Positions 7,673 through 48,939 of a stretch of DNA of 53,088 nt are shown here, in pieces. The translations under genes and the position numbers were made by a program. Location of the stretch: positions 1 through 53,088 of IMG/VR virus record IMGVR_UViG_3300035670_000285, one strand, 5' to 3'. Positions within the stretch are counted from its first letter, which is position 1. The number at the start of each line of letters is the position of its first letter. The notes under the pieces are model-generated. The model saw nothing but the letters and a program-made list of their open reading frames with translations. It made no database searches and was not told the origin of the DNA. Source of the stretch: a virus.

Positions 7673-7999
7673 ATGGAAACAACAAAATTAAAAAATCTAA
7701 TTAAAGAAGCCGTTAGAGAAGTTTTGAAAGAAGAATTAGCTAATCTTGGAAAACAAAAAATCCAAGAATCATTAACTAACAATGAAGAGTGGCCTACTGT
7801 TAACCTAACAACCAAAAATGTTAACCCAGCTGCTTTTCGTCAAAGTTTAATGGATCAAATGGGAATAAACGCCCCTCAACCAGCTAAACCAACAACATTT
7901 GCTGAAAAACAAAATGTATATCAGAATATGTTAGCTCAGGTAGCTGCTGAGATGAGACAAAATCCTGGTGAGGTTAATAATTTTAGAAACGTCCAATAA
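7673..7999 (+). CDS. Small protein with SELK-type N-terminal tag, 108 aa
   Basis: It opens with a basic amphipathic helix, M-E-T-T-K-L-K-N-L-I-K-E-A-V-R-E-V-L-K-E, very similar to the starts of the proteins at 37960 and 43642. The I-K-E at 10-12 could be a head-protease site. The rest is Gln/Asn/Pro-rich with no recognised domain. It is coupled by TAATG to the gp25 gene, so it might be either a baseplate component or a tagged internal protein. Its placement inside the baseplate operon makes a tail role equally likely. Confidence 0.6.
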   Translation: METTKLKNLIKEAVREVLKEELANLGKQKIQESLTNNEEWPTVNLTTKNVNPAAFRQSLMDQMGINAPQPAKPTTFAEKQNVYQNMLAQVAAEMRQNPGEVNNFRNVQ

Positions 8000-11347: not shown

Positions 11348-11706
11348 TGGCAGAAAATATTCCTGTTCAACGCGCTATATATGACAAGAATAGATTCCCT
11401 AAGGTTATTGATACTCAATTTAGAGAATTGAATTCACCTGAACCGGTTGCTTCAGAAGTAACAATAGAAGAATTTTTTGCTTTGTATGATGAATTATTCT
11501 TTAGCATTCCTGCAGAAGGAGATGTTGATTCTCACAGATATATTTTACAAAGAGAAGCAGAGTATTTAGGTGTTAAATTTGCTGATGATGTTGATATACA
11601 GGCATTATTGCAAGAAATAACAGATTTAAGACAACAATTATTAACAGCTGAGACTGAAAATGCAAACTTGGCTCAACAACTAGCAAACAGTACGAATGGC
11701 GGATAA
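11347..11706 (+). CDS. Small baseplate-operon protein with C-terminal coiled coil, 119 aa
   Basis: The first 80 residues are acidic with no known domain. Residues 82-115 form a leucine-rich heptad helix (I-Q-A-L-L-Q-E-I-T-D-L-R-Q-Q-L-L). It overlaps both neighbours (TAATG before, 11 bases after), so it is made with the wedge proteins. Plausibly an adaptor or trimerisation factor for the giant protein that follows. Confidence 0.6.
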   Translation: MAENIPVQRAIYDKNRFPKVIDTQFRELNSPEPVASEVTIEEFFALYDELFFSIPAEGDVDSHRYILQREAEYLGVKFADDVDIQALLQEITDLRQQLLTAETENANLAQQLANSTNGG

Positions 11707-14700
11707 TATTAAAATAGTAGGACAAATCCTTGACACAGACATAGTAAGTCGTTATCCTTTACAGGACCAACAACTACTTGTTCCTAGCATACAAGCAGAA
11801 ACATTTGGTGCTTCTACTGATTATATTGAATACTTTGTTTTTGATCTTGGAGGGAGTGTTTTAAATTCGGATTATAATTATCAATCGTATAAATTACCTT
11901 CTAATGTAGGTTATTCTCAAAGTTTACTTCCTGCAATTGAAATAGACCCTATTCAAGATATTCAAAATCTAGGATATGAGTCAGGAGAAGTAACTGTTAG
12001 ATATAACTTTTTTAGAAAAGTTGCTAGCCAACCATTTAGCAATCAACTATTCATCCAGCAAATTTCTACAGACAGAACAGAAATTAGAGTAAACTCTACT
12101 GTTTTATCCCCAGAAAGTTTATTGTCTATAGTTACTAATTTTACTCAAAAACAAAATGAAGTTCCTTATTACTATTATGTAATATTAAACTTTGGAGATA
12201 ATAACCAAGTAATAGCAGTTAATGCTTTAAGTACTGTTAGTGACACCGGAGAAGCTAGTATTTTATTTAAATTAGCTAATCCACTTCCTGCTAATTTAGG
12301 ATTAAAAAATACTTTTTGGATTGTAGAGGAAATTATCAATCCTTATATATTTGACCTTAATCTTGATAAGTTAATTTCTTCATTACCACAACCTATTTTA
12401 AAGGGTCCTAATTTTGATATTGATTTACAAACTAAAGAGGTAGTACCTACATCATATAGTAATTACACTCAACTTATATCTTCACTAACAGGATCATACT
12501 ATCAAGTTGTTTTAAATGTAATTAACAACCAAAATACTAACATTAATATAGACTACAGCACTCTTAATGATTTTATTCATTATAGTTCTGCTGAGAATAG
12601 ACTATATAATTTCATGTATAAAGTAGGAGAAATTGAATCTTACCAATCTGAGATCAATATTAATTCTCCTTTAACTGCTAGTAATCCATCTTTGGTAGGT
12701 TCTGTAACTAGAGCTAGTTCTAGTTTAAATGAAATTATTTCAAAATTTGATGGATTTGAATATTACTTATATTTTAATTCAAGTTCATTAACTTCTTCTA
12801 TTGTAGAATATACACTAGAAACCGGATCCTTCTTTGAATATAATATTGCACCTTACCCTAAATCTAATTCTACTCAACCATATACACTATATGCTTCATC
12901 TTCTGCTACAGTACAAAGCTGGTATGTTACTGCTTCTAATGTAGCTGTTGCTTATGATATAGATAATAAAGATATTTTAATAGACACCATACCTTCTTAT
13001 ATATTAGAAGATCCGGATAACTATTTGCCTTATATTACGTTTGTTAATATGATAGGCCAATATTTTGATAATGTTTGGATCTATATAGACAAATTAACAG
13101 ATGTATGGGATAATGACAATAATTTAAATAAAGGTATATCCCAAGATTTAGTATATGAATGGTTAGAATCCTTTGGAATGAAATTATATAATTCCCAAGG
13201 TAATCAAACTGTACTTGATTATCAAGTAGGTGGATATAGTGGTAGTGTTGATTTTAATGGTGATTATTCTCCATCAAGTAGCTTTTTAAATAATGTACCT
13301 AGAAAAGATTTAGTATTAGATACATACAAAAGATTATATCATAACTTACCTTATTTATTTAAAACTAAAGGTTCACACGGTGGTTTACAAGGTTTAATCA
13401 CTGCCTTTGGTATTACTGGTTCTATTCTTCCTATTAAAGAATATGGAGGTACAACAGATTATCAAGATTTAAAAGGATATAACCCAAATAAAATTACTTT
13501 AGGCTCAAACACTATTACAGGTAGTGTTTTATCTTCTATTAAACGTCTAGAAACATCTCCAACTTCATCTAGAGCTATAAAAAGTCAAGATTTACATTTT
13601 ATTGATGTTTCATTCTCTCCAGAAACACAAATTGATGCTGCTGTTTCTGCTTCAATTATTGCTGTTGACCCAACATGGGTAATTGATGATTATATTGGTG
13701 ATCCTAGAGATTTAGAGTTAAATACATATCCTTCTCTATCATTTGAGCGTGATTATTGGTTTGGAGAAACATTTAGTGAACCTTTTGATTATGGTGGATT
13801 TATAAGATTAATACAATTCTTTGATAATTCATTATTCAAAATGATCAAAGATTTTACTCCTGCTAGAGGTAATACTTGGACAGGTGTTTCTATTAAATCA
13901 CCTGTACTTGAAAGACCTAAAGTAGCTCAGTATGATCCTAGATTTACGCAAACAAATGAATTTTCTACTACAACAGATAGTGCTTCTTTAGAACCTATAT
14001 ATGATCCTTATTATTATTATTTAGCAGGAGACAAAGCTGATTATTATAATGGTGCTATACCTGGTTCTGAACTTGATACTTACTTAGTTTTTGAAGAAAA
14101 TAATAGAAATCCTTTCTTAGTAAATAATACTGTAGGATATGTTCCTCCTGGGTTTATTAGTGGTAGTACAGAATTTGTGTTAGATTACAATTCTCCTAGA
14201 CCTGAAAACTTCTTCTTAAACTCAGATTTTAATGTATTACAAAATAATGTAGATGTAAGTTTAACATCTGAGTATAGACAAAAACTTGTTCCAATATATT
14301 CTTTAGGAAACAATACATCAACTTATGTTTCTTATTCTATAACTGAATCGGTTGAATTACAAGATTCATATCTTTCTTTATATTCATATAATACACCAAG
14401 ATATGATGGTGTACAATTATATGGTAGATTATTTAATACATGGTCTATAGGAGATATATCTTATGGTACTTCTCCTGTAATTAACTATTATGTTAAAAAA
14501 TTAGGTTTATTTACTGAAGTTGTAGATAATGTTTATTTGCCTTATAAGAGTAGTGTTAGACTAAAATATTTGGTTGATGAAACAGGTAGATTAACTGAAT
14601 TAAATAAACGTAATAGAAACTGGGTAGAAGTACAAAATACATTTGAAACTGGTGATCCGCTGAATGTTTCTTTATTTGATTCTCAAAAATATTCTAATCA

Positions 14701-19286: not shown

Positions 19287-22200
19287 ATGGGTACTATTAT
19301 TATATTCAGTCCAATTCCTACTAGAACCGTAACTCCTACGGTAAGTAGAACGGCTACTCCTTCTGTAACTCCTACAGTAAGTGTAACTCCAACTCTAACA
19401 AAAACTCCTACTCCTACTGTTACCCCAACAGCTACAATAACACCTAGCGTTACCAACACACCAAGTGCTACTATCACTCCATCACCAACAGGAACTCCAG
19501 GAATTAGTTCCACAGCAAGTCCTAGTCCTAGTGTTAGTTTAACAGTAACACCTACTGTAACTCGAACAGCAACAGTAACTCCTTCTATAACACCAACAGC
19601 AACAATAACTCCTACAGTAACACGTACTCCATCTGTTACTAATACACCTACAATTACTCCTACATCTACAATTACTCCTAGTGTAACTGTAACGCCAACT
19701 TTAACAAGTACTCCAACTGTAACTCCTTCTAATACTGTAACACCTTCTGTGACTGTTACCCCAAGTGTAACTGTTACTCTAACTGTAACTCCTAGTGTTA
19801 CTATTACACCTAGTGCTACTGTAACCCCAAGTGTAACTGTAACTGCTACAATAACTCCATCGGTTACTGTTACGCCAACAGTTACTATAACACCTTCTGT
19901 AACGGTTACACCAACACTTACCCCAACTACTACTATAACACCAAGCGCAACAATTACTCCTAGTGTTACTGTTACACCTAGTGCTACTGTTACACCTACA
20001 GTTACTCCAACTACTACTATAACACCAAGTGTTACTGTAACTCCATCGGTGACTGTAACATCTACTGTTACTCCTAGTGTGACTATTACTCCAACTGTTA
20101 CTATTACACCTAGTATTACTGCTACTCCAAGTTTAACCCCTTCAACAACTGTAACACCTAGTGCTACTATTACTCCTACAATTACTTCTTCTCCAAGTAT
20201 TACACCAACTAATACTGTTACTCCGAGTACTACTGTTACACCAACTATTACTCCGACAGTTACAATAACTCCAAGTGCTACTGTTACACCTTCTGTAACT
20301 GTAACTGCTACAATAACACCAAGTATTACACCAACAGTAACTGTTACTCCAAGTGCTACTATAACTCCTACTGTAACAATTACACCTTCACTTACTCCAA
20401 GTAGTACTGTTACCCCATCAGCCACAATTACTCCTACAGTAACTGTTACTCCTAGCGTAACTGTTACCCCAACAATAACACCTTCTATAACGGCTACTCC
20501 AAGTATTACCCCTTCTGTTACTATTACTCCTACAGTAACTATAACCCCAAGTATTACTAGAACAACTTCTGTTACTCCTACTCCTACTATTACTCCAAGT
20601 ACTAGTATTAGTCCAAGTATAACACCTACTTCTACTCCAACATTAACTCCTTTCTTATCATTTAGTATAACACCTTCTATTACTCCAAGTATTAGTATTA
20701 GCCCTTCAATTACACCATCTGTAACAGCAACACCAACAGTAACACCTTCTGAGACTGTTACCCCATCAGTAACTGTAACTCCTAGTGTTACAGTAACTCC
20801 TACTGAAACTCCTACTCCAAGTATTACAGCAACGCCAACAGTAACTCCTTCATCTACTATTACCCCATCAGTAACTGTTACTCCAAGTGTCACTATTACA
20901 CCTAGTATAACAGCAACGCCATCAGAAACACCTACACCAACTGTAACAGCTACTGCTACTGTAACACCAAGTGTTACTGTTACTCCTAGTGCTACTGTAA
21001 CACCAAGTGTTACTGTCACAGCAACTGTTACCCCTAGTGTTACTATTACTCCTACAGTAACAATTACTCCGAGTATCACAGCTACAGCTACTATAACTCC
21101 TAGTGTTACAATCACTCCTTCAGCTACTGTTACTCCTACAATTACACCAACAACAAGTATAACACCAACAGTTACTATAACACCAAGTGTTACTATTACA
21201 CCTTCACTTACTCCTACTAGTACTGTTACACCTTCTGTTACTATTACTCCTTCTATTACGGCTACTGCTAGTATAACGCCTAGTGTAACAATTACTCCGA
21301 GTGCTACTGTAACTCCAACAGTTACTCCTTCAGCAACTGTTACACCTTCTGTTACTATTACTCCAACGTCTACTGTAACTCCTTCAGTTACTATAACACC
21401 ATCTATAACTCCTACTAGTACCGTTACCCCAAGTGTTACTGTAACTCCTACAGTTACTATTACTCCTAGTATTACACCAACACGTACTATCACTCCTAGT
21501 GTTACTATTACTCCTTCAATCACACCAACAAGGACAGTTACACCAAGTGCCACAATAACACCTAGTGTTACTATTACACCAAGCATAACTCCTACTAATA
21601 CACTTACTCCATCAGCTACAGTAACACCAAGTGCTACTGTTACTCCTACAATCACACCTAGCAATACAGTCACTCCATCAGCTACAATAACACCAACTGT
21701 AACAATAACTCCTTCAATTACAGCAACAGCTACAATTACCCCATCTGTAACTGTAACTCCTAGTGTAACTATAACTCCTTCTGTGACTGTTACTCCAAGT
21801 GTAACAATTACTCCTTCAATTACACCAACATCTACAATTACACCTTCTGTAACTGTTACACCAAGCGCAACAATTACTCCTACTATTACACCTACTTCTA
21901 CAGTAACTCCTAGTGTAACTGTTACTCCTACAATTACACCAACTAATACTGTTACTCCGTCTACAACTGTAACACCAACCTTAACTCCTTCAGCTACTGT
22001 TACACCGTCTGTTACTATAACACCTTCAGCTACTGTTACTCCTACAATTACACCTACTAATACTATTACACCTAGTGCTACTGTTACTCCTTCAATTACA
22101 CCAACAAGAACCATTACACCTACTTCTACAGTAACACCTAGTGTAACTGTTACTCCAAGTATAACTGCTTCTCCTAGTATTACTCCTACATCAACTGTAA

Positions 22201-25200
22201 CACCAAGTGTTACTGTTACTCCTTCTGTAACTGTTACTCCAAGTGTAACAATTACTCCTAGTATTACACCAAGTAATACTGTAACTCCAAGTATTACACC
22301 TAGTATAACTCCGACTTCTACTCCAACATTAACTCCTTTCTTATCACTAACTGTTACTCCTACTATAACACCAAGTATTAGTATAACACCAACTATAACA
22401 GCTACTGCTACTGTAACTCCTAGTGTTACTGTAACTTCTACTGTAACACCAAGTATTACACCTAGTATTACTGCTACAGTATCACCAACATTGACCCCTA
22501 CTTCTACTGTAACTCCAAGTATAACAGCTACTATTACTCCATCTGCTACAATTACACCTACAGTAACTGTTACACCTAGTGCTACTGTTACACCAACTAT
22601 TACCCCGACAGTTACAATAACTCCAAGTGCTACAGTTACCCCTACTATTACACCAACTGCTAGTATTACTCCTACACCAACTATAACACCAACAAGAACA
22701 ATTACCCCAACTCAAACTATTACTCCATCAATTACACCTACAAGGACAATTACTCCTAGTGTAACTGTAACGCCTAGTGTAACTATTACTCCTACACTTA
22801 CCCCAACTACTACTATAACACCGAGTGTTACTATCACACCTAGTATTACTCCTACAAGAACAATTACTCCGAGTATTACAGGTACACCTGCCGCTTCTAT
22901 AACTGCAAGTGTAACTGCTACTCCTAGCATAACACCAACTGTTACTATTACTCCATCTGTAACTGTAACTCCTAGTGTAACAATTACCCCAAGTATTACA
23001 CCAAGTAATACTGTAACTCCTTCAGCTACTATTACTCCTACAATAACACCTACAGCGAGTATAACACCAACTGTAACTGTCACACCAACTGTTACTATAA
23101 CACCAAGTATCACAGCAACAGCTACTATTACTCCTAGTGCAACAATTACTCCGAGTATAACAGCTACAATATCTCCAACTCCTGTATCTACAATTACACC
23201 AACAGTTACTGTTACACCAAGTATTAGTCCAACAGTTACTATTACACCTAGTGTAACTGTTACTCCATCTGTGACAATAACTCCTAGTATTACATCAACA
23301 CCTTCAATTACACCAACACGAACTATTACTCCTACACGGACAATTACTCCAAGTATTACTGCTACTCCAAGTATTACACCAACACGAACTATTACCCCTA
23401 CAGTAACCATAACACCTAGCATAACAGCTACTGTATCTCCAACTCCTGTATCTACAATTACACCAACGGTTACAGTAACTGTAACTATTACTCCATCATC
23501 TACAATTACTTCAACAGTAACAGTAACACCAAGTGCTACTATTACTCCTACAATTACACCAACAAGAACTATTACTCCATCTAGTACTATTACACCTAGT
23601 ATTACTGCTACCCCTAGTATTACTCCTACAAGAACAATTACACCAACAGTAACTGTAACTCCATCAATTACTCCTACTAAAACTATAACTCCAAGTATTA
23701 CTGGTACTCCGGCATCTTCTATTACTCCAACAGTAACACCTACTAGCAGTATTACTCCAAGTATTACTCCTACAAGAACAATTACACCAACACGGACTAT
23801 AACACCAACACGGACTATTACTCCATCAATTACACCTACTAAAACTATAACTCCAAGTGTAACACGTACACCTTCAATTACTCCTACAAGAACAATTACA
23901 CCAACAGTTACTCCTACAAGAACAATAACACCTACTAGATCTATTACACCAACAGTAACAAGAACTGCTTCTGTTACTCCAACAAAAACTATAACTCCAA
24001 CAAAAACTGTTACTCCTAGTATAACACCTACACGGACAAGGACACCATCAATTACTCCTACACGAACAATAACACCAACAAAAACTATTACTCCAAGTAT
24101 TACTTCTACAAGAGCAGCTACTCCAAGTGTTACTCCTACTAAGAGTATTACACCAACACGGACTATTACTCCATCAATTACACCTACTAGAAGTATTACT
24201 CCTACAAGGACAATTACTCCTACAAGAACACCAACAAAATCTATTACACCAACAAAAACTATTACTCCTACAAGGACAATTACTCCTACAGTAACACCTA
24301 CTAAGAGTATTACACCTACTAAGAGTATTACTCCTACTAAGAGTATCACACCATCACCATCTAGACCTCCTTCTATTACCCCATCAATTACTTCAACACG
24401 AACAGCTACACCACTCCCATCAATTACTCCAACAACTAGTATTACACCAACAAGAAGTGTTCCACCAACACCATCAGTTACTCCTACAATGACACTCACT
24501 CCTACTAGAACTCCTACTGTAACTCCTACACCATCACCTAGTGTAGCTTGTTGTGGTAATGCTGCTGGCTCTGGATCATATGCTGGAACTGATTTGTATG
24601 TTTATCCAAATACTTATATTTGTTCTACATTTACAAGTAATGCTGTTCTATGGGTTAATGCTGTAGACAGACCAAATAGATTCTCAATCTATGATTCATC
24701 AGGTCAGGTAACAAGTTCAGGATGGGTTGGTTCGGCTAGCTATGCTGGTCCTTGGGGTGCTTCATTGAATGTACCAACACCACTTGCAATTCCATTTACT
24801 TGGAATTCTAGTACAAACAGATATGTTACTGTAGAAGCAGGACCTGGCAGTATCAGTGATGCATATGAATGGATACTATCTTGTGACTACTCAGTAGGAT
24901 TCTTCTCTTATGGTGCTACTTGTGCTGAAGCTTGTGGTGGAACTCCTAATATTCAACTTTACTCAAGTTGTAGTGCAACGTACTTTGGTCCTGGATGTGA
25001 TGTTAGAAGTAGCACAGGTCAAGAACCTACTCCTGGTTATTATGCTTCTGGTGGTTATTGTTACTTTATAAGTGAGTCTGCTTATGAACCTGTAGCAACA
25101 GATTCAACATCTACATTACCTGTTTACTTCCCTACAAGTTCATATACTATAGTAATTTCTAAAACTATATGCCCTTCAGTAACTCCTACACCAACTATAA

Positions 25201-25523
25201 CTCCGACTAGAACACCATCACCTTCAGTAACACCAGCTGCTCCTACACCATCTATTACTCCTACGAGAACAATAACACCAACTATAACTCCAAGCCCAAC
25301 ATCATCTACACTATATATAAAAGGTACAAATTGTACTGATTCAGGTGATGTTAGATCATTCTCATATAGTGGAGGATTACAAGATGGAGATGTAATCCAA
25401 ATTAATTCAGGGGCTAATATAGGATGTTATACACTAACCACATTTAAACCAGGAACTGGAACCAATGGTAATATTGATGGATTATATACAATTATTGGAG
25501 ATTGCTTAAATTGTACTGTATAA
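19287..25523 (+). CDS. Giant Thr/Pro/Ser hexad-repeat tail fibre, 2078 aa
   Basis: Residues 10 to about 1750 consist of a six-residue repeat, (V/I)-T-P-(S/T)-x-T, with x mostly Val, Ile, Ala or Thr. From about residue 1130 onward x is increasingly Arg or Lys (T-P-T-R-T-I), so the distal part is cationic. A Cys-containing globular domain follows at about 1753-1960 (S-V-A-C-C-G-N-A-A-G), then a short second repeat and a C-terminal domain with five Cys (2007-2078). No signal peptide. The repeat would form an extended polyproline-like rod, comparable to mucin stalks, ending in a receptor-binding tip; this is inference. It sits in the fibre cassette and is flanked by methyltransferases. Long open frames on the other strand are by-products of the repeat. 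Confidence 0.8.
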   Translation: MGTIIIFSPIPTRTVTPTVSRTATPSVTPTVSVTPTLTKTPTPTVTPTATITPSVTNTPSATITPSPTGTPGISSTASPSPSVSLTVTPTVTRTATVTPSITPTATITPTVTRTPSVTNTPTITPTSTITPSVTVTPTLTSTPTVTPSNTVTPSVTVTPSVTVTLTVTPSVTITPSATVTPSVTVTATITPSVTVTPTVTITPSVTVTPTLTPTTTITPSATITPSVTVTPSATVTPTVTPTTTITPSVTVTPSVTVTSTVTPSVTITPTVTITPSITATPSLTPSTTVTPSATITPTITSSPSITPTNTVTPSTTVTPTITPTVTITPSATVTPSVTVTATITPSITPTVTVTPSATITPTVTITPSLTPSSTVTPSATITPTVTVTPSVTVTPTITPSITATPSITPSVTITPTVTITPSITRTTSVTPTPTITPSTSISPSITPTSTPTLTPFLSFSITPSITPSISISPSITPSVTATPTVTPSETVTPSVTVTPSVTVTPTETPTPSITATPTVTPSSTITPSVTVTPSVTITPSITATPSETPTPTVTATATVTPSVTVTPSATVTPSVTVTATVTPSVTITPTVTITPSITATATITPSVTITPSATVTPTITPTTSITPTVTITPSVTITPSLTPTSTVTPSVTITPSITATASITPSVTITPSATVTPTVTPSATVTPSVTITPTSTVTPSVTITPSITPTSTVTPSVTVTPTVTITPSITPTRTITPSVTITPSITPTRTVTPSATITPSVTITPSITPTNTLTPSATVTPSATVTPTITPSNTVTPSATITPTVTITPSITATATITPSVTVTPSVTITPSVTVTPSVTITPSITPTSTITPSVTVTPSATITPTITPTSTVTPSVTVTPTITPTNTVTPSTTVTPTLTPSATVTPSVTITPSATVTPTITPTNTITPSATVTPSITPTRTITPTSTVTPSVTVTPSITASPSITPTSTVTPSVTVTPSVTVTPSVTITPSITPSNTVTPSITPSITPTSTPTLTPFLSLTVTPTITPSISITPTITATATVTPSVTVTSTVTPSITPSITATVSPTLTPTSTVTPSITATITPSATITPTVTVTPSATVTPTITPTVTITPSATVTPTITPTASITPTPTITPTRTITPTQTITPSITPTRTITPSVTVTPSVTITPTLTPTTTITPSVTITPSITPTRTITPSITGTPAASITASVTATPSITPTVTITPSVTVTPSVTITPSITPSNTVTPSATITPTITPTASITPTVTVTPTVTITPSITATATITPSATITPSITATISPTPVSTITPTVTVTPSISPTVTITPSVTVTPSVTITPSITSTPSITPTRTITPTRTITPSITATPSITPTRTITPTVTITPSITATVSPTPVSTITPTVTVTVTITPSSTITSTVTVTPSATITPTITPTRTITPSSTITPSITATPSITPTRTITPTVTVTPSITPTKTITPSITGTPASSITPTVTPTSSITPSITPTRTITPTRTITPTRTITPSITPTKTITPSVTRTPSITPTRTITPTVTPTRTITPTRSITPTVTRTASVTPTKTITPTKTVTPSITPTRTRTPSITPTRTITPTKTITPSITSTRAATPSVTPTKSITPTRTITPSITPTRSITPTRTITPTRTPTKSITPTKTITPTRTITPTVTPTKSITPTKSITPTKSITPSPSRPPSITPSITSTRTATPLPSITPTTSITPTRSVPPTPSVTPTMTLTPTRTPTVTPTPSPSVACCGNAAGSGSYAGTDLYVYPNTYICSTFTSNAVLWVNAVDRPNRFSIYDSSGQVTSSGWVGSASYAGPWGASLNVPTPLAIPFTWNSSTNRYVTVEAGPGSISDAYEWILSCDYSVGFFSYGATCAEACGGTPNIQLYSSCSATYFGPGCDVRSSTGQEPTPGYYASGGYCYFISESAYEPVATDSTSTLPVYFPTSSYTIVISKTICPSVTPTPTITPTRTPSPSVTPAAPTPSITPTRTITPTITPSPTSSTLYIKGTNCTDSGDVRSFSYSGGLQDGDVIQINSGANIGCYTLTTFKPGTGTNGNIDGLYTIIGDCLNCTV
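19320..24545 (+). repeat. 18-bp-period coding repeat (Thr/Pro/Ser hexads)
   Basis: Several hundred tandem units of about 18 bases encode (V/I)TP(S/T)xT. Units are conserved in protein but scrambled in synonymous positions (ACT/ACA/ACC, GTA/GTT, CCT/CCA). Longer blocks are duplicated: an identical 30-base landmark at 20631-20660 recurs at 22317-22346, and related blocks lie near 23170 and 23430 and near 22870 and 23695. Confidence 0.85.
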
Positions 25524-32544: not shown

Positions 32545-33552
32545 ATGGGAAAAAATCTAAATAAAGAACTAGTTAAGGAATTCATGAAACATGTAATGGA
32601 TGAACTTCAACTAGAAAAACTACCTAAAATAACAATGTCTAATGACTCACAAGAAGCAATTGACTTACGCTCTTGGGGTGGATATAGACCATCAACAAAA
32701 TCAATCCATATAGTAACAGCCAAAAGACACCCAGCGGATATTTTCAGAACATTAGCACATGAACTAGTACATTATAAACAAGATCTAGAAAATCGCTTAA
32801 AACCGGGATCAGGAGAAACAGGTAGTGATGATGAAAATGAAGCTAATTCTAGAGCAGCTGTTATTATGCGCAATTTTGCTCAAGCAAAACCTAATTTATT
32901 TGAGCATTTAACCAAAGAAGGTGAATATGGAAAGTATCTATTTGGTGATAAGGAATCTGGTGTTAAAATAGGTTGGTATAAAGATGAAGTTGAAATAGAT
33001 ACCCCTGCTGAAAGATTATTATTTAATTTTTTAAAGAAATATGCTGATTCTGAAGCTAATGTATATAGTACTGTAAATTTAGATTCATATTTAGGAACTT
33101 TTAAAAAGCTAAAAGCAGAATATCCTGAAATAGTTGATTCAAATTTATCTCCAAATACTTACATTTATAGAGGAACTGTTATAAGTGAGGAAAAAGCAGC
33201 AGCATTATTTAATAGTCCGAATAAAGAAGAAACTAAAGACAATATTATAATCCCTAATCAGGAATATTCATCACGCAGAAAAGTGTCATCTTGGAGCACA
33301 CGCTATTTCCCCGCAGCATCATTTGCAATGAGTACTGCTGAAAGAGGAGGTGAGGGTGTACCTGTAGTAATGAGAGCTAAAGCAGGTGATGCTGATTTAT
33401 TTTTTAATCCTAAATTCATGGACAAACTGAGTGATCAACTTGAAGATGAAGTAATTAATGGTACTAATCCTATGAAAGTAGATGTTATGCTGATCAAAAA
33501 CTACGAGGATGAATTTGAAGATATTGAAAGTGGATATTTAAGCACAAAATAA
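32545..33552 (+). CDS. Zinc metallopeptidase-ADP-ribosyltransferase-like fusion, 335 aa
   Basis: Start set at ATG 32545 (see the promoter motif just upstream). An HExxH zinc motif, H72-E-L-V-H76, sits in the N-terminal half, with an acidic D-E-N-E-A near 96-100 as a likely third ligand. The C-terminal 130 residues read like an R-S-E-class mono-ADP-ribosyltransferase: Y-I-Y-R209-G, then S-S-W-S-T-R-Y-F-P-A-A-S-F (248-260, STS motif), V-P-V-V-M-R-A-K-A, and L-E300-D-E302-V-I (ExE). T4 Alt is an injected ADP-ribosyltransferase, which supports a host-takeover role. Seen: the motifs. Inferred: the fusion's activity. Confidence 0.68.
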   Translation: MGKNLNKELVKEFMKHVMDELQLEKLPKITMSNDSQEAIDLRSWGGYRPSTKSIHIVTAKRHPADIFRTLAHELVHYKQDLENRLKPGSGETGSDDENEANSRAAVIMRNFAQAKPNLFEHLTKEGEYGKYLFGDKESGVKIGWYKDEVEIDTPAERLLFNFLKKYADSEANVYSTVNLDSYLGTFKKLKAEYPEIVDSNLSPNTYIYRGTVISEEKAAALFNSPNKEETKDNIIIPNQEYSSRRKVSSWSTRYFPAASFAMSTAERGGEGVPVVMRAKAGDADLFFNPKFMDKLSDQLEDEVINGTNPMKVDVMLIKNYEDEFEDIESGYLSTK

Positions 33553-34159: not shown

Positions 34160-34432
34160 ATGGATAACGTTTGGACAGTATTTGTTACAGCAATAACGGT
34201 TTTGGGTGGAACAACAGCCTTCCGTTTTTACGAAAAACGAGCACTGTACCGTGAACGCGATGCTGATTTTATTCGCCATGATTGCAAAGATAGAATAGCT
34301 AAATTAGAAGCCCTATTAGAAGAATCATCTAGAGAGAAAGATGAAATGCGCAATTTAATATTACAATTAACAGCCCAAGTAGCTGAATTACGTACTAAAG
34401 TTGAATTCTTTGAAAAACAAACCAATGCATAG
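34160..34432 (+). CDS. Membrane-anchored coiled-coil protein, 90 aa
   Basis: A short N-terminal hydrophobic helix (V-F-V-T-A-I-T-V-L-G-G-T-T-A-F, 7-21) is followed by a long charged heptad helix (I-A-K-L-E-A-L-L-E-E, then L-I-L-Q-L-T-A-Q-V-A-E-L). This topology is shared by inner-membrane spanins and by small assembly factors. No partner gene is obvious. It overlaps the next gene by 8 bases. Confidence 0.55.
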   Translation: MDNVWTVFVTAITVLGGTTAFRFYEKRALYRERDADFIRHDCKDRIAKLEALLEESSREKDEMRNLILQLTAQVAELRTKVEFFEKQTNA

Positions 34433-34661
34433 CTTAACAGAACTACTAGGACTAATTACAGAAGGTAAAATTGAATATCCAGCAAACCATAAACCTGGTA
34501 TGCGTGTAACTAAAGGTGGTTCAATGTGTGCTAATTGTGAATATTGGGTTGAAAAAGGTAATTTGTGCAACAACAAATATTGGTTGCAATGGCGTGATGG
34601 CGATGCTAAAGTTCCCGCTCCTGCAGACGAATATTGTTGTAATTGGTGGCACGCAAAATAA
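34425..34661 (+). CDS. Small Cys-rich tagged protein, 78 aa
   Basis: I prefer ATG 34425 (M-H-S-L-T-E-L-L-G-L-I-T-E), which overlaps the preceding stop by 8 bases; ATG 34401 is possible. The start resembles the tag of the MIKL proteins, with an I-T-E site at residues 11-13. Cysteines are arranged C-A-N-C-E-Y-W, then C-N-N-K-Y-W, then C-C-N-W-W, spacing similar to high-potential iron-sulphur or zinc-bearing phage proteins. Function unknown. Confidence 0.58.
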   Translation: MHSLTELLGLITEGKIEYPANHKPGMRVTKGGSMCANCEYWVEKGNLCNNKYWLQWRDGDAKVPAPADEYCCNWWHAK

Positions 34662-35319: not shown

Positions 35320-36087
35320 ATGATTAAACTAATAGACATATTAAAGGAAGCTAATATTATCAAAGTCCCAGAAGAAGTACTATCTCAACTTGAAGATGTT
35401 TATAACTACACAAAAAGTAATATTGATAAGTTAAAAGAAACTGCTCCTGAAGATTATAATAGTCCTTTAATTATTCCTAGATATAACAAATATTTTAAAT
35501 TTAATGACTTATCAGGAAAAGAAATTCAAGTGTCTATAGGATATTACAACAACCCCACAGATTTAGGAGCTGGTAGAATGAATACTATAGATGATATAAT
35601 GCTGATAAATCTAGCTTTTTTTGGAGATAAAGAAGATTTTTTAGAATTAGGTGAACACGAGTTAGTTCATGCAATGGACCCAAAACTTAGAGATATAGAA
35701 TTAATGGGTAGGGAGTATGCAAAGAAAGGTGCTGAACCTGATCAAATGGATAAATACTTAAAATCTCCATGGGAGTTTGATGCTTTTACTTCTTATCTTA
35801 TTAACAAACTAAAAAGATCTAGAAGCAGAATTGATGATAAGGATTATTTTGATAAAAATATAAAACAACTTCTATCGGCACTAAAAAATAAAAGTGTTGA
35901 GGAAATTATAAATGATGATGAATTACTTAGAAATGCTTGGTTTTTTTCTAATAAAGAATGGAAAGAAGAAAACTGGTCTAATGTTTTATACGAATTTCAA
36001 AAAGAGATGGAAAGGATGAAAGCCTGGGCCTCTAAACCTACCCTATACAAAAAATTCCTACAGAGATATGCTAATGTTGTAAAATAA
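35320..36087 (+). CDS. HExxH zinc metallopeptidase-like protein with MIKL tag, 255 aa
   Basis: Residues 1-10 are M-I-K-L-I-D-I-L-K-E, the tag shared with three following genes. G-E-H113-E-L-V-H117-A-M-D is a clear HExxH motif, and E152 in S-P-W-E-F-D-A-F is a candidate third ligand. It is unrelated in layout to the fusion at 32545. If the tag is a capsid-targeting peptide cut after Glu10, this would be a packaged peptidase. It is about 10 bases after the preceding gene. Confidence 0.65.
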   Translation: MIKLIDILKEANIIKVPEEVLSQLEDVYNYTKSNIDKLKETAPEDYNSPLIIPRYNKYFKFNDLSGKEIQVSIGYYNNPTDLGAGRMNTIDDIMLINLAFFGDKEDFLELGEHELVHAMDPKLRDIELMGREYAKKGAEPDQMDKYLKSPWEFDAFTSYLINKLKRSRSRIDDKDYFDKNIKQLLSALKNKSVEEIINDDELLRNAWFFSNKEWKEENWSNVLYEFQKEMERMKAWASKPTLYKKFLQRYANVVK

Positions 36088-36091
36088 AAAA

Positions 36092-36412
36092 ATGATTAAA
36101 TTAACAGATATATTAACTGAAATAAAAGAAACATTTGAAAGTTTTGCTATTACTCGTGGTAAAGGTGCTGCTAAAATAGCATCAACTGCTGAAGAAAAAG
36201 GTGGGTTGTCATTATTAACATGGCATCACTTTAAAGTAAAAGCTCCATATTATAAAAAAGCAGCTGAGGGTAAATTTGATATAGAAAAAGCTAAAAGTGA
36301 ATTTGAGGATACCTATAAAAAAATATCACTAGATATGACTCAAACTGAATTTCAAAGAGAAGTGGGGCGTTTAGAAGTATTAGGCGAACTTCTAATTAGA
36401 AATAAAAAGTGA
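36092..36412 (+). CDS. MIKL-tagged small protein, 106 aa
   Basis: Tag M-I-K-L-T-D-I-L-T-E at 1-10, then a helical basic body (A-I-T-R-G-K-G-A-A-K-I-A, W-H-H-F-K-V-K-A-P-Y-Y-K-K-A). No family is recognised; Lys-rich composition is like T4 internal proteins that bind DNA or the core. It starts four bases after the peptidase gene, and its TGA overlaps the next GTG. Confidence 0.6.
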   Translation: MIKLTDILTEIKETFESFAITRGKGAAKIASTAEEKGGLSLLTWHHFKVKAPYYKKAAEGKFDIEKAKSEFEDTYKKISLDMTQTEFQREVGRLEVLGELLIRNKK

Positions 36413-36762
36413 TTAAATTAATAGATATATTAAATGAAATTGACCCTAAAGTAGGTACAGGTAAAAAACCTAAAGGATCAGGTCGTCGTCTATACACAGA
36501 TGAAGATCCAACAGATACAGTACGTGTCAAGTTTAAAACAGCTCAAGATATAAAAGATACTTTATCTAAAGAATCATTTAAGTCCAAATCACATGCTCGC
36601 CAATCACAAATTATTAACTTAATCCACCAGCGTGTAAGAGCAGCATATGGTAAAGCTAAAAATCCGGATGTAAAATCTCGTTTAAAACGTGCTTTAGATT
36701 ATATTGAAAAACGCAAAGAAGCATCTAAAGAAAAAACACAACGTTTGAATAAAAATAAATAG
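36409..36762 (+). CDS. MIKL-tagged basic protein, 117 aa
   Basis: GTG start overlapping the preceding stop (GTGA). Tag M-I-K-L-I-D-I-L-N-E at 1-10, followed by a strongly basic protein (K-K-P-K-G-S-G-R-R, A-R-Q-S-Q-I-I-N-L-I-H-Q-R-V-R-A-A, ending K-E-K-T-Q-R-L-N-K-N-K). High charge suggests DNA binding inside the head or after injection. No known domain. Confidence 0.6.
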   Translation: MIKLIDILNEIDPKVGTGKKPKGSGRRLYTDEDPTDTVRVKFKTAQDIKDTLSKESFKSKSHARQSQIINLIHQRVRAAYGKAKNPDVKSRLKRALDYIEKRKEASKEKTQRLNKNK

Positions 36763-36764
36763 TT

Positions 36765-37028
36765 ATGAATTATCCGTATACTGATATAGAAAACAATGAT
36801 TTCTATATTATACGTGAATTTAATGAGAATATAGATCCTATCGAACTATTATGGCACCGTGATGGTGAAGATCGCACAATAGAAATAATAGGACATACTG
36901 ACTGGCAAATACAACTTGACAATCAATTGCCTACCTCGCTAAATCAATCAATATTTATACCGAGACACACTTGGCATCGTGCTATAAAAGGTACGGGATC
37001 TTTATGTTTAAAAATATATAAGCGTTGA
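36765..37028 (+). CDS. Small cupin-like protein, 87 aa
   Basis: The pattern L-W-H-R-D-G-E-D-R-T-I-E-I (27-39) and F-I-P-R-H-T-W-H-R-A (63-72) matches a mini-cupin with His/Glu metal ligands. Small cupins of this kind occur in many marine phages. It is the one gene in the tag block without a tag. It contains an ATATTTATA copy internally (36951-36959). Role unknown; possible metal binding or sugar-nucleotide related. Confidence 0.6.
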   Translation: MNYPYTDIENNDFYIIREFNENIDPIELLWHRDGEDRTIEIIGHTDWQIQLDNQLPTSLNQSIFIPRHTWHRAIKGTGSLCLKIYKR

Positions 37029-37960
37029 TTAAATTAACAGACATACTAGCGGAAATATTAACTGAAAAAAAGTTATGCAAAAAAGGCAAAGCTTATTATA
37101 ATCGTCGTATTGCCGCTGGTGAAAAACCATCTGCTTACTTATCAGGACGTGCTGTTAAAGTGTGTAAAGGATTAATGAAAGAAGATGAAGATAACTTTAG
37201 AGGTATTAATCCATCTGAAGCATATAACGATGTTGATGCTATTGATACATTAAAAGATAAAAAACGTGATGTTGCTTTTATAGTAGCAAAATCAAATACT
37301 CCTGAAAATTGGGAATACGTTCAAAAAGTTATACAAGATAACGGTATTAAAGTAATGTATGTAAAGGGAAACCCATATGATGCATATGTTGCTTATTTAC
37401 CTGGTAGTGAAAATAAAGCTACACAATTAAAAAATTTAGCTGAAAAATATGGCGGCTATTTAGCATCAAACGCTACAGCAGACGATACTAGAAAAATAGG
37501 TAAATTATTAGGATATAAAGAAGATAAAATAGAACAATATATTAAAGATAGATATATTGATGAATCTTTAAAAGAAATATTTCATGATAAAATAATTAAA
37601 TGCAGAAAGTGTGGATGGGAATGGAAATTATCTCAGGGAGGAAAAGATCCATTCGTTTGTCATAAAAATAAGTGTGGATACGATAATAGTGATTTTTACG
37701 ATAATGATATAGATGAATCTTTACGTGATTGGTTTAAAAAAGAAGATTGGGTTCGTATAGATACTCAAGGTAATATCACAGGTCCTTGTGGTACAATGAA
37801 AAAAGGTAAGGCAACTACTCGTTGTTTACCTCGTGCTAAAGCAAATAGTTTAACAAAAGCAGAACGCGCATCTACTGCTCGTAAAAAAGTAGCTGGTTCT
37901 AAAAAAGGCAAACAATTTGTTCCTAATACTAAAAAAGCAAAAGTAAAACTTAGAAAATAA
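37025..37960 (+). CDS. MIKL-tagged multi-domain protein with zinc ribbon, 311 aa
   Basis: TTG start overlapping the preceding stop (TTGA). Tag M-I-K-L-T-D-I-L-A-E (1-10); a K-K-L-C-K-K-G-K-A-Y-Y segment; an alpha/beta domain (85-178: A-F-I-V-A-K-S, A-Y-V-A-Y-L-P-G, I-G-K-L-L-G-Y); a four-Cys zinc ribbon (C193-R-K-C196, C212, C217); and a basic C-terminal module (E-S-L-R-D-W-F-K-K-E-D-W-V-R, then R-C-L-P-R-A-K-A-N-S) that is widespread in phage proteins. Looks like a mosaic of recurrent small domains behind the tag. Function unknown; injection is inference. Confidence 0.6.
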   Translation: MIKLTDILAEILTEKKLCKKGKAYYNRRIAAGEKPSAYLSGRAVKVCKGLMKEDEDNFRGINPSEAYNDVDAIDTLKDKKRDVAFIVAKSNTPENWEYVQKVIQDNGIKVMYVKGNPYDAYVAYLPGSENKATQLKNLAEKYGGYLASNATADDTRKIGKLLGYKEDKIEQYIKDRYIDESLKEIFHDKIIKCRKCGWEWKLSQGGKDPFVCHKNKCGYDNSDFYDNDIDESLRDWFKKEDWVRIDTQGNITGPCGTMKKGKATTRCLPRAKANSLTKAERASTARKKVAGSKKGKQFVPNTKKAKVKLRK

Positions 37961-38451
37961 TGAAACATTCGGAATTAAAAGAAATGATTCGTCGTGTAGT
38001 AAAAGAAAGAGCTCTTACTGGTGCTGAAGAACGCAAAAAAGAGCAAATCGTTAAAGGAATGAAAAAATTCTTTAAAGGTGATGAATCTGACATGTACGCT
38101 ATTGCTACTGATAGAGCTAAAAAATTAAAAGAAGGTGAAGACCATGAAGTATCAATGGCTATATCTAGTTTAGAAGCAATTGCCGAATCAATCATTGAAC
38201 TAAGACAAAAATTGGGCACCCAAGAACGCAACATCCCAGGATGGATTCAAGATCATATTGCTAAAGCAGAAAATTATATTGAACAGGCTGCTCAGGGATT
38301 TCATGAATTACATGAAGAAAAAGATCCATTAGATTTTGTTGTATCTGAAAAAAAAGGTAAAGATCAAGATGGTGATGGTGATATAGATAGTAAAGATTGG
38401 CAAATAGGAAGAGATATTGCTATTAAAGCACAAATGGCTAAAAAGAAATAA
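37960..38451 (+). CDS. Head-region protein with EF-hand-like calcium loop, 163 aa
   Basis: It starts M-K-H-S-E-L-K-E-M-I-R-R-V-V-K-E, the second tag type (see 7673, 43642). The body is helical (I-P-G-W-I-Q-D-H-I-A-K-A-E-N-Y-I). Residues 135-146, D-Q-D-G-D-G-D-I-D-S-K-D, fit the 12-residue EF-hand loop at every ligand position, so calcium binding is likely. Proteins with this layout lie near head and scaffold genes in marine phages (from memory). It overlaps its neighbour by TAATG. Confidence 0.6.
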   Translation: MKHSELKEMIRRVVKERALTGAEERKKEQIVKGMKKFFKGDESDMYAIATDRAKKLKEGEDHEVSMAISSLEAIAESIIELRQKLGTQERNIPGWIQDHIAKAENYIEQAAQGFHELHEEKDPLDFVVSEKKGKDQDGDGDIDSKDWQIGRDIAIKAQMAKKK

Positions 38452-40025: not shown

Positions 40026-40385
40026 ATGAAACTAAGCGAGTTTAGGAAAAGTCTTATCCTTGAAGTAAAAAAACTCATCAGGGAACAGGCTATTCCTATT
40101 AGTCGAGCTGATTTAGTTGATCTAATTAAAGCTACAGACCCTCGCAATTCAGGTAAAGGTGAATTCTTTACTGTAACATTTGTTAAAAGAACAGATGGTA
40201 CTACTAGAGTATTAAATGGTAGATTAGGTGTTAGACGTTATTTGAGAGGTGGAAATTTATCTTATGATGCTGCTGAAAAAGAATTATTACCTGTTTATGA
40301 TACTAAGAAAGCAGAATATAGAATGATTAACCTACGTAGCATACTCTCAGCTAAAGTAGGTGGTAAAGAGTATATTGTAAAATAA
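40026..40385 (+). CDS. Small SH3-like phage protein, 119 aa
   Basis: The sequence F-T-V-T-F-V-K-R-T-D-G-T-T-R (47-60), then G-V-R-R-Y-L-R-G-G, and Y-R-M-I-N-L-R-S-I (98-106) matches a small conserved phage family with an SH3-like barrel. It starts M-K-L-S-E-F-R-K-S-L-I-L-E, a tag-like helix with I-L-E at 11-13. Its function in other phages is unknown. Late-type motif immediately before it. Confidence 0.62.
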   Translation: MKLSEFRKSLILEVKKLIREQAIPISRADLVDLIKATDPRNSGKGEFFTVTFVKRTDGTTRVLNGRLGVRRYLRGGNLSYDAAEKELLPVYDTKKAEYRMINLRSILSAKVGGKEYIVK

Positions 40386-40406: not shown

Positions 40407-40862
40407 ATGTCAAAGCAATTTATTTCCGAAGCACAAAGAATGCAAAAACTAGCTGGCATGCCAATCAATGAAATGGCCCTCCCAGAAATGGCTCGTACAG
40501 CAGGTACTGGTAATGCTATTACAATTACTGAAAAAGGTGAAGAAATTTTAAAACAAGCTAAAGCTACAGGATCTGTTCCTGAAGGTATCAAAGCTAGACA
40601 ATTAGAAATTTTAGTATTCTTGAAAAAAGCTAAGAATGAAGGTAAAAGAGTACAAAAAGTTGACTATGCTAAAGAAAAAGGAGTAGAACAACCACAAGTA
40701 AATGCTCTATTCAATGACTTATCAGTTAAAGAATTAGTAGCTGCTGAAGGATATACTTCAAAGCAACAAGAACCAAAATCGTCTAGACCAAAAGTTGATA
40801 CTGATGCTATCATGTCTCAATTGGATGATTTGGATATTGAAGAATCAATGAGTGAAGAATAA
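40407..40862 (+). CDS. Winged-helix-like small protein, 151 aa
   Basis: The N-terminus F-I-S-E-A-Q-R-M-Q-K-L-A-G-M-P-I-N-E is a helical leader typical of internal phage proteins of Bacteroidota phages (from memory) and carries an I-N-E site. P-E-M-A-R followed by I-L-V-F-L-K-K, Q-P-Q-V-N-A-L-F-N-D-L and K-E-L-V-A-A-E-G looks like a winged helix. The same E-M-A-R-anchored module occurs in the protein at 43642. Acidic tail. A strong terminator follows. Confidence 0.58.
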   Translation: MSKQFISEAQRMQKLAGMPINEMALPEMARTAGTGNAITITEKGEEILKQAKATGSVPEGIKARQLEILVFLKKAKNEGKRVQKVDYAKEKGVEQPQVNALFNDLSVKELVAAEGYTSKQQEPKSSRPKVDTDAIMSQLDDLDIEESMSEE

Positions 40863-43641: not shown

Positions 43642-44727
43642 ATGAAAAAAAGCGAATTAAAAGAATATATTAAAGCACAAATCCGTGAAAAATTATATGC
43701 TGGACCTAGCTCAGTAACAGCTGCTAAAACGGATCCTGATTATGGAAGATTAAAACCACAAGATAAAACTGATATTGAAAAAACACTCAAAACAGGTGGT
43801 TCAGTTGAATTAGAAGAAATGGCTCGTCAAGCCACTGTAGTTAAAATTGATCCTGATTTTAGAGAAAAAGCTAAAGAGATTAAGACAGGTGGTCCTATTA
43901 GTCCTGTAAAACTAAAAGACGTATTGGATTTCCTTGAAGGAAAAACAGAAACAACTGGTCCTGCAATAGCTGCTGGTGTTGGATTTCCTGGTAAAATGCC
44001 TCGCATATATCCTATATATAAAGCATTATTAGATGTGGGTGCTCTTACTGGTACTTCAAATGAAAAAACAGAAGAAATTCCTAACACACCAGAAAATGAA
44101 GAAGCAGCAGAACTTTTCTATAGTGATGTTTATGATAAATCAAGTGCTGAACCTGAAGAAGATGAGTTTGAAAAAGAACCAGAAATGGGAAGCGTTGAAA
44201 AGTCTTCTGCATCTACATTAGACGCAACTACTCAAAAAGCAACTGAATTTACTCTTGATAATGGAGATTTGATTCAATCTGTAATTAAAGCTTATAAAGA
44301 TTCACGTATTCGTCTTGGTTCTCTTCGTGAAGAAGAAGGTGATCTAAGTGCTGCTGATTATAAAAAAGCATTAAAACAAAGTAAAGAAGCTGGTGTAGAA
44401 CGTTTACAAGTAAAACTTAATAGTTTAGTTGATAAAATATCAAATCTAGAACCTGAAGTTCAAGATAAAGTATTAAAAATACTTGATTACAAATTCAAAT
44501 CAGTAAATGCCAATAAATTAACAGATGTTATTGCTAAAAAGTTAGGAAGAACCCTTGAACCTACTAATATTGATACTGAAGAAGATGAAATTATTGATTT
44601 AGATGATGAAGAAATCAATGAAGACTCAGGAGTAGAAGATGTTAATTACGGAGATAAATTTAGCGATTATGAAAATGTGTATGAAGCATTAGCAAACGCT
44701 TTAAATGAAATAACAAAAAAGAGATAA
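43642..44727 (+). CDS. Tagged scaffold-like/internal protein, 361 aa
   Basis: M-K-K-S-E-L-K-E-Y-I-K-A-Q-I-R-E (1-16) is the second tag type, with I-R-E at 14-16. An E-E-M-A-R-Q-A-T segment at 58-65 and the 40 residues after it align with the winged-helix-like module of the protein at 40407. The middle and C-terminal parts are very acidic (E-P-E-E-D-E-F-E-K-E-P, T-E-E-D-E-I-I-D-L-D-D-E-E), as in head core or scaffold proteins. Functional role is inference. Confidence 0.55.
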   Translation: MKKSELKEYIKAQIREKLYAGPSSVTAAKTDPDYGRLKPQDKTDIEKTLKTGGSVELEEMARQATVVKIDPDFREKAKEIKTGGPISPVKLKDVLDFLEGKTETTGPAIAAGVGFPGKMPRIYPIYKALLDVGALTGTSNEKTEEIPNTPENEEAAELFYSDVYDKSSAEPEEDEFEKEPEMGSVEKSSASTLDATTQKATEFTLDNGDLIQSVIKAYKDSRIRLGSLREEEGDLSAADYKKALKQSKEAGVERLQVKLNSLVDKISNLEPEVQDKVLKILDYKFKSVNANKLTDVIAKKLGRTLEPTNIDTEEDEIIDLDDEEINEDSGVEDVNYGDKFSDYENVYEALANALNEITKKR

Positions 44728-47076: not shown

Positions 47077-48939
47077 ATGGTAGACACATCTTTATTTGGT
47101 AGACTCAAACGATTATTTTCAACTGATGTAATTATACGCAACGTTGGTGGTAATCAAGTAACAGTAATCGACACAGATCATATACAAGCAACAGGAGTTG
47201 TACAAACAAATATGTACCCTGACAGGTACCAGCGCATATACACTGGCGGTTTAGGTACTTATGTTGGTAATGCTCCTTATTCTAACTATACTGTATTAAG
47301 ACCTCAGTTATATAATGACTATGAAGTAATGGATGGTGATCCAATTGTAGCATCTGTATTAGATATTGTAGCTGATGAATCTACACTTAAAAATGGTGCA
47401 GGTGAAGTATTAGCTATTAAATCACCTGATGAAAATATTCAAAGAATATTGTACAATCTATTCTATGATGTATTAAATATTGAATTTAATCTTTGGGGAT
47501 GGGTTCGTACAATGTGCAAGTATGGTGACCTATATCTACATCTCCATATTGCAGAAAAATATGGTGTTTACCAAGTAATTCCTCTTAACGTATACAACGT
47601 AATCAGAGAAGAAGGACTTGACCCTAAAAACCCAGCGTACGTACAATTTAGAGTATCACCAAACGCTGCATACTCTGGAATTATAAGCCCATCATCAGAT
47701 AATGATGTGGTGTTCCAAAACTATGAAATAGCAAACTTTAGACTGTTAGGAGATTATAATTTCCTTCCTTATGGTCGTTCATACATTGAACCTGCTCGTA
47801 AAATATTTAAGCAATTAGCATTGATGGAAGATGCAATGTTAATTCACCGTATTTTAAGAGCACCTCAACGCCGTGTTTACTACGTTGACACCGGAAACAT
47901 CCCACCAAATGAAATTCCTCAGTTCATGGAAAAGTTGAAAACACAAACTCAACGTACTCCATTTACTGACCCTAAAACTGGTGAATATAATCTTCGCTAC
48001 AACATGATGAATGTAAATGAAGATTTTTACATACCAGTTAGAGGTGGAAACACAAATACTAAAATTGATACATTACCTGGTCTTGAGTATAATGCAATTG
48101 AAGACGTTGTTTACTTAAGAGATAAAATGTTAGCTGCTATGAAAGTTCCTAAGGCATTCTTAGGATATGAAGCTGATGTTGAAGGTAAATCTACACTAGC
48201 ACAACAAGATATTCGTTTTGCTCGTACAATTGAACGTATACAACGTATTGTTGTTAGTGAATTAACTAAAATCGCGTTAGTACACTTATATTCTCAAGGT
48301 TATACTGATGAGAATTTAACAAACTTTGAACTAGAATTAACGACTCCTTCTATCGTTTACGATCAAGAAAGAATTGCGTTAATGAAAGAAAAGGTTGATT
48401 TAGCTAAAAATATTATGGATGCTAGTTTGTTCCCAACTGACTACATTTATGATTATCTATTCCATATGAGTGATGACAAATATGAGGAAATGCGTGATCT
48501 AGTAGTTGAAGATAAAAAACGTATGTTCCGTCTATCACAAATTGAAAACGAAGGAAATGACCCGTTAACTAGTGGACAATCATATGGAACGCCACATGAC
48601 TTAGCCTCATTGTATGGTAAAGGTCGTAACGGGGTCGGAGTGCCGCCTGCCTACGATGAGTCTAACCCTATTGGACGTCCTCAAGAAAAAACATCTGTTT
48701 ATAACACTCAAAAGCGTGTATTAGGTAAAGATCCATTAGGTAAAGAAGTAGATCTTCAACCGGATTCTGCTAGAGCTCCTGAACCTAAAGGTGGTTCACC
48801 ACTAGCTTTAGAAAATACTAAAGCGGTATATGCTCAAAATAAAAAGATGCTTGAGGAAATGTTTAAAAAATCTAATGTATTCGATCAAAAGGGTAACAAT
48901 TCTTCATTGCTAGACGAATCAAACATCAAAGATATATAA
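47077..48939 (+). CDS. gp20: Portal protein gp20, 620 aa
   Basis: Start ATG 47077 (M-V-D-T-S-L-F-G-R-L-K-R-L-F). T4-type gp20 landmarks: D-G-D-P-I-V-A-S-V-L-D-I-V-A-D-E-S (near 88-104), R-I-L-R-A-P-Q-R-R-V-Y-Y-V-D (near 260-273), and F-L-G-Y-E-A-D-V-E-G-K-S-T-L-A (near 366-380). Length exceeds T4 gp20 (524 aa) because of a Gly/Pro-rich C-terminal tail. Forms the dodecameric channel at the head vertex, initiating assembly and docking the terminase encoded just upstream. Confidence 0.93.
   Translation: MVDTSLFGRLKRLFSTDVIIRNVGGNQVTVIDTDHIQATGVVQTNMYPDRYQRIYTGGLGTYVGNAPYSNYTVLRPQLYNDYEVMDGDPIVASVLDIVADESTLKNGAGEVLAIKSPDENIQRILYNLFYDVLNIEFNLWGWVRTMCKYGDLYLHLHIAEKYGVYQVIPLNVYNVIREEGLDPKNPAYVQFRVSPNAAYSGIISPSSDNDVVFQNYEIANFRLLGDYNFLPYGRSYIEPARKIFKQLALMEDAMLIHRILRAPQRRVYYVDTGNIPPNEIPQFMEKLKTQTQRTPFTDPKTGEYNLRYNMMNVNEDFYIPVRGGNTNTKIDTLPGLEYNAIEDVVYLRDKMLAAMKVPKAFLGYEADVEGKSTLAQQDIRFARTIERIQRIVVSELTKIALVHLYSQGYTDENLTNFELELTTPSIVYDQERIALMKEKVDLAKNIMDASLFPTDYIYDYLFHMSDDKYEEMRDLVVEDKKRMFRLSQIENEGNDPLTSGQSYGTPHDLASLYGKGRNGVGVPPAYDESNPIGRPQEKTSVYNTQKRVLGKDPLGKEVDLQPDSARAPEPKGGSPLALENTKAVYAQNKKMLEEMFKKSNVFDQKGNNSSLLDESNIKDI

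Follow-up and report, generated by a model that had tools for sequence, protein, structure and literature searches.

A shared N-terminal decapeptide in front of four neighbouring genes

The window, by which we mean the whole analysed stretch of 53,088 bases, is an IMG/VR virus record that carries terminase and portal genes of the T4 type and in which long series of genes lie on the same strand. Four of its neighbouring open reading frames (ORFs), at 35320 and 36092 (ATG), 36409 (GTG) and 37025 (TTG), start with MIKL[TI]DILxE, the GTG and TTG start codons overlapping the stop codon of the preceding gene (Table 1). A preliminary description of this DNA had proposed that these genes share this start, with Leu8 and Glu10 in each, in front of otherwise unrelated bodies. 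All four ORFs were confirmed, each reads M-I-K-L-[TI]-D-I-L-x-E, and past residue 10 the bodies are mutually dissimilar (best BLASTP E value 0.9). When the window was scanned with a degenerate DNA pattern of the tag, zero mismatches yielded only the four ORF starts; with up to 3 mismatches there were 6 matches compared to 1.2 expected, and no shuffle reached 6.

The gene at 36765, enclosed by tagged ORFs, served as negative control, and the tag was found in none of the 14 homologues listed for its family (41 homologues in the fetched loci). Since this gene and its listed homologues are untagged, the tag is not general to gene starts in this region. Every listed homologue of the 36092 protein has the same or a variant tag (MRLLELLRE, MNLLDILKE), and the tag is kept in homologues of the 35320 protein from L228, L133 and L220, the last of which lacks E10 but has HINE/D. 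Pfam and PHROGs searches assigned the four tagged window proteins to essentially no known families; the 37025 protein matched unnamed PHROGs, chiefly in its C-terminal part. The suggestion that one of them is a zinc peptidase held only as far as the HExxH-like motif of the 35320 protein is concerned, because comparison of this protein with PDB folds gave no significant match and only weak minigluzincin matches.

Table 1. Tagged, tag-like and reference ORFs of the window. Slashes mark possible cleavage positions.
Feature	Position	Strand	N-terminus	Remarks
Second-type-like start	7673..7999	+	METTKLKNLIKEAVREVLKE	Adjoins baseplate genes; membership uncertain
Variant-tag ORF	34425..34661	+	MHSLTELLGLITE/G	Weaker case, no family test
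Tagged ORF 1, 255 aa	35320..36087	+	MIKLIDILKE/A (35320-35349)	Body with HELVH (HExxH) metallopeptidase-like motif
Tagged ORF 2, 106 aa	36092..36412	+	MIKLTDILTE/I (36092-36121)	Conserved small protein family
Tagged ORF 3, 117 aa	36409..36762	+	MIKLIDILNE/I (36409-36438)	GTG start
Untagged neighbour, 87 aa	36765..37028	+		Negative control between tagged ORFs
Tagged ORF 4, 311 aa	37025..37960	+	MIKLTDILAE/ILTE/KK (tag 37025-37054)	TTG start; two possible sites
Second-tag ORF	37960..38451	+	MKHSELKEMIRR	Body common to LAGI-tagged proteins
Second-type-like ORF	40026..40385	+	MKLSEFRKSLILEVKKLIRE	[LI]xE at residues 13 and 20
Third-tag ORF	40407..40862	+	MSKQFISEAQRMQKLAGMPINE	Resembles C-terminus of relatives' gp22-type scaffold
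Second-tag ORF	43642..44727	+	MKKSELKEYIKAQIRE	
T4-type portal (gp20)	47080..48939	+		Head operon start; prohead protease would lie past the window end

Two other window genes were noted. The one at 32545-33552 encodes an HExxH-domain protein fused to a second domain; the relative L095 has the same arrangement (10950-11936), with a PBECR3-like second domain, which in L095 also stands alone behind a MIKLIDILKE tag. The other (19287-25523) encodes a 2,078-aa protein, possibly an adhesin of the surface or tail, with a long N-terminal stretch of Thr/Pro/Ser-rich repeats (TPTVTPTATITPS...).

Spread of the tag, further tag types and cargo

The tag DNA pattern occurred in at least 120 stretches in IMG/VR, compared to 3 for a residue-scrambled pattern of the same composition and 4 for another arbitrary decapeptide. 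The preliminary description had proposed looking in other genomes for the tag before unrelated domains. On IMG/VR contigs it heads at least 129 different proteins that are 60 or more residues long. These fall into at least 66 clusters with mutually unrelated bodies, a number that, like all cluster counts here, varies with the thresholds chosen; the tag classes themselves are operational patterns. All 140 of 140 tag matches lay close to where a reading frame starts, 108 of them lacked an in-frame start further upstream, and the only 2 internal occurrences were both in bacterial contigs. Across 84,980 bacterial and archaeal genomes (257 Gb), 16 tag stretches were detected, several in contigs of Flavobacteriales MAGs. 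In an unsupervised control that left out the pattern-selected genes and counted as a match at least 6 of residues 2-10 shared with an unrelated gene, 422 of 2,421 genes shared their N-terminal 9-mer compared to 13-22 for internal 9-mers, and at least 3 unrelated clusters were matched by 211 genes N-terminally and by none for internal windows. This confirms the tag phenomenon as real and as wider than first stated: to judge from the predicted proteins, the tag heads dozens of unrelated proteins in uncultured T4 relatives. We found no mention of the tag itself in the literature, as far as open papers are concerned.

A looser second tag had been reported at 37960, 43642 and 7673, and it is present there, with the reservation on 7673 given in Table 1. 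It follows the pattern M-K-x-[ST]-[EQ]-L-[KR]-x-[LI]-I-[KR]-E-E.... In 76 proteins its [LI]xE ends were most frequent at residue 12 (50 occurrences), with a further peak at residue 20 (32), the search pattern having taken in positions 10-11 and not the Glu. The third, LAGI tag, [RK]MQKLAGI[IL]TE, precedes 68 body clusters, and the LAGI motif was located N-terminally in 136 occurrences, C-terminally in 24 and internally in 13. The same bodies were found behind different tags: 45 pairs combined type 1 with type 2, and 20 combined type 3 with type 1 or 2. Members of family A2 always have a Glu immediately ahead of [AG]KQ[VI]G, whichever leader they carry.

Further shared starts were seen in passing. 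A possible fourth one, M[EA][ND].F[DN]L[KR].FL.EN[KR]LT, is carried by several proteins of Flavobacterium phage immuto (L121 3806, 17631 and 18632) and by L123 1803. L143, which belongs to a 368-kb contig, has 7 or more genes with unrelated-looking bodies that share a very different N-terminal tag, MKTRNGFVSNSSSSSFI; insertions seem to split the portal, protease and capsid genes of this contig.

Pfam matches of the tagged bodies comprised lysozymes, M23 peptidases, cell-wall hydrolases, zeta-toxin-like kinases, RimK-like ATP-grasp proteins, NUDIX, RNase_T, NT5C, a PBECR3 nuclease-like domain and 2'-5' ligase-like domains. The six best fold matches of the A2 family model were DarT ADP-ribosyltransferases (probability 1.00, best E value 2.5e-4), at a TM score of only ~0.4; as far as this model can be relied on, the cargo includes a DarT-like ADP-ribosyltransferase fold. 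Some cargo, such as the lysozymes and M23 peptidases, could belong to the tail instead. As a separate observation, ADP-ribosyltransferase-like motifs (YRA, STT, ESE) were recognized by eye in a head operon protein of Microcystis phage Mel-JY01 (L122 22429-23595), which has no Pfam match.

The Glu10 boundary, the head genes and the level of the signal

When proteins were chosen by residues 1-8 only, residue 10 carried 3.25 bits of information, residue 11 carried 0.61 and the residues beyond ~0.2. E10 was present in 71 of the 83 tags that had not been found by an E10-requiring pattern, and L8 was nearly fixed; L4 (208/210) and I/L/V7 (210/210) were also conserved, both positions having belonged to the search pattern. 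Another [LI]xE ending at residues 9-20 was found in 14 of the 15 tags without E10, compared to 26% expected (p = 8e-8). In both AlphaFold models the tag formed a low-confidence helix outside the confident fold.

The nearest isolate is Flavobacterium phage immuto, with a portal 56% identical, where the portal is followed by prohead protease, scaffold and Gp23. The tagged proteins of this phage (vB_FspM_immuto, NC_055915) include those at 24569, 103366 and 112261, and its gp21-type protease is gp070. Its homologue of the 36092 protein starts MRLLELLRE/A; this gene (L121 12261-12575) is annotated as tRNA(Ile2) agmatinyltransferase, a name that nothing here supports. The head protease that the preliminary description anticipated downstream is missing from the window, as this stops short of the protease position, but a gp21-type protease was found in relatives. 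Among 36 tagged records, mostly fragments, Peptidase_S77 was detected in 18, Gp23 in 16 and a T4 portal match in 20 (18 over the cut-off). Peptidase_S77 was present in all 5 tagged records above 150 kb and, both tag types counted, in 12 of 12 above 100 kb. Since 3 of 6 large control contigs carry it too, its association with the tag is weak by itself, and it was set aside as a discriminating marker.

The propeptides of the major capsid protein (MCP) end with [LI]-[VLI]-x-E in 18 of 18 distinct proteins, followed mostly by A or S. This end matches I7-L8-x-E10 of the tag, a statement on conservation only, as cleavage was not observed. The first MCP residues also show an h-x-x-h-h spacing in nearly all cases (e.g. 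MNVQQLLES). The residue following Glu10 (P1') is often I or V in the tag, compared to A or S in the MCP. A T4-gp21-type protease gene and a gp22-like scaffold gene flank a tagged gene (MIKLRDILNETEEFQQLP...) in L126 and L127. The tag is shared, N-terminal, sharply bounded and swappable, and the same phage group has a protease and a matching capsid cleavage motif. No virion proteomics of immuto or of any tagged phage was found in the literature.

Alternatively, the tags could dock their proteins onto another virion part, such as tail, baseplate or neck, or onto a phage-made compartment, without being removed by the prohead protease. The lysozymes, cell-wall hydrolases and M23 peptidases among the cargo would fit such a role, as would the second-type-like start beside the baseplate genes at 7673, which is found in the same place in immuto. 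However, the sharp Glu boundary and the new [LI]xE where E10 is lost implicate the head core and its protease instead, and further evidence against docking elsewhere comes from the match with the MCP propeptide ends, the tagged gene inside the head operon and the similarity of the LAGI tag to the scaffold C-terminus. We regard this alternative as unlikely.

The conserved start might also be a DNA or RNA element, acting as translation start, expression control or recombination module, with the peptide being incidental. The nucleotide conservation noted in the preliminary description was indeed found at D6, which is GAC in 63% compared to 22% background, and at I7, which is ATA in 96% compared to 42%; codon context (D-I or I-L) did not explain this bias. 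It does not extend to I2, K3, L4, L8 and E10, whose synonymous codons are used almost as in the background, and the 144 tags comprise 131 distinct DNA sequences. Moreover, no conserved sequence was found upstream of the tag, the neighbouring 36765 family is untagged, and bodies swap between tags of very different sequence, all of which argues against a nucleic acid element. The LAGI tag lacks the GAC-ATA preference, and a late-promoter-like motif (TATTTATA) was not enriched upstream of tagged genes over other genes. We therefore consider a purely nucleic acid-based signal very improbable, while the D6-I7 bias hints at an added action at the DNA or RNA level. That all tagged proteins form one ancient gene family with bodies diverged past recognition is scarcely tenable: single-linkage clustering does chain some families via shared small domains, but the folds and Pfam families differ (DarT-like, NUDIX, lysozyme, M23, RNase_T, RimK-like, zeta-like kinase) and one body occurs with different tag types.

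Relation to T4 head targeting and proposed function

In the capsid-targeting sequence (CTS) of T4, residues 4 and 7 serve in targeting, and processing requires residues 8 and 10 (PMC9026906). A stretch of 10 residues is enough for foreign proteins to be packaged and subsequently delivered to the cell (PMC9026906; PMC3012670). The CTS, present in the internal proteins IPI, IPII, IPIII and the short Alt propeptide and processed by gp21, resembles the tag in being a 10-residue N-terminus with hydrophobic residues 4, 7 and 8 and a Glu10 closing [LI]xE, common to proteins with unrelated bodies. The proposed likeness to T4 internal head proteins was borne out when the T4 sequences were compared, MKTYQEFIAE/A of IPII and IPIII standing in register with the tag. 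IPI is similar to the tags without E10, having no E10 itself and an [LI]xE (ITE) at residue 19. T4 also packages the ADP-ribosyltransferase Alt, which has its counterpart in the DarT-like fold predicted among the tagged cargo.

The two systems differ in the residues themselves (MIKLxDILxE compared to MKTYQEFIAE) and in range, with at least 66 body clusters behind the tag compared to a handful for the T4 CTS. Unlike the T4 CTS, the tagged phages have two extra interchangeable tag types and are not backed by experiment. T4 internal proteins are basic, whereas tagged proteins do not differ from untagged ones in net charge per residue; we do not file the tagged proteins as T4 IP homologues. The closest sequence match is the propeptide of the vertex protein gp24, MAKINELLRE/S, which shares K3, [LI]4, an acidic residue 6, [IL]7, L8 and E10. 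While gp24, counted among the T4 head proteins with a 10-20-residue N-terminal propeptide (PMC5694885), is a shell protein, the tag of the window type heads non-shell enzymes. In the giant phages SPN3US, phiKZ and 201phi2-1, a gp21-like prohead protease cleaves propeptides from inner head proteins behind a Glu (PMC5694885), but these propeptides are mostly longer than 100 residues, have the motif A/S/G-x-E and include no short shared tag. The third tag, RMQKLAGIITE, hardly differs from the C-terminus of the gp22-type scaffold of Immutovirus-like phages, R[MFW][QK]KLAGI[IK]K; the sequence is C-terminal in the scaffold and N-terminal, with an added ITE ending, in the cargo. The tag system would extend the known T4-type CTS principle, with a variant sequence and a much expanded cargo range.

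The capsid-targeting idea is supported in that almost all of its sequence-level predictions testable here held, with packaging, cleavage and injection remaining inferences. We consider it highly probable that the tag acts as a propeptide for capsid targeting and is taken off by the prohead protease, although there are no virion data. The hydrophobic residues 4 and 7, together with 8, would tether the precursor to the prohead core during assembly, and the phage's own gp21-type protease would cut after Glu10 at [LI]xE, so that the leader is lost. The mature protein would remain in the head beside the DNA and then enter the next host. Many unrelated enzymes would have been placed behind the type-1 leader and two other interchangeable leaders, one of which may copy the scaffold protein C-terminus. 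Core binding and packaging are inferred, cutting and targeting are deduced from the sequences and the T4 precedent, and injection of the tagged proteins is inferred from T4 alone. The P1' residue unlike that of the MCP, the non-basic cargo, the weak S77 link, the D6-I7 bias and the possible tail cargo count against a propeptide.

More tentatively, and with somewhat less than even confidence, the tags may constitute a zip-code system, i.e. several interchangeable address tags, each docking to a different prohead-core surface, that load a large, quickly changing library of injected effectors (ADP-ribosyltransferases, kinases, nucleases and peptidases) at controlled positions or in controlled amounts. 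One tag would then have been borrowed from the scaffold C-terminus, and one resembles a vertex-protein leader.

If the capsid-targeting interpretation is true, a plain N-terminal search would turn hundreds of genes of unknown function from uncultured T4-related phages into predicted injected cargo, each with a predicted cleavage site, and would provide a route to new anti-defence and host-takeover enzymes. In laboratory systems, the leaders would also be available as ready-made peptides with which to load phage heads with foreign proteins. Furthermore, this would suggest that the repertoires of these phages evolve by swapping of bodies behind few leaders.
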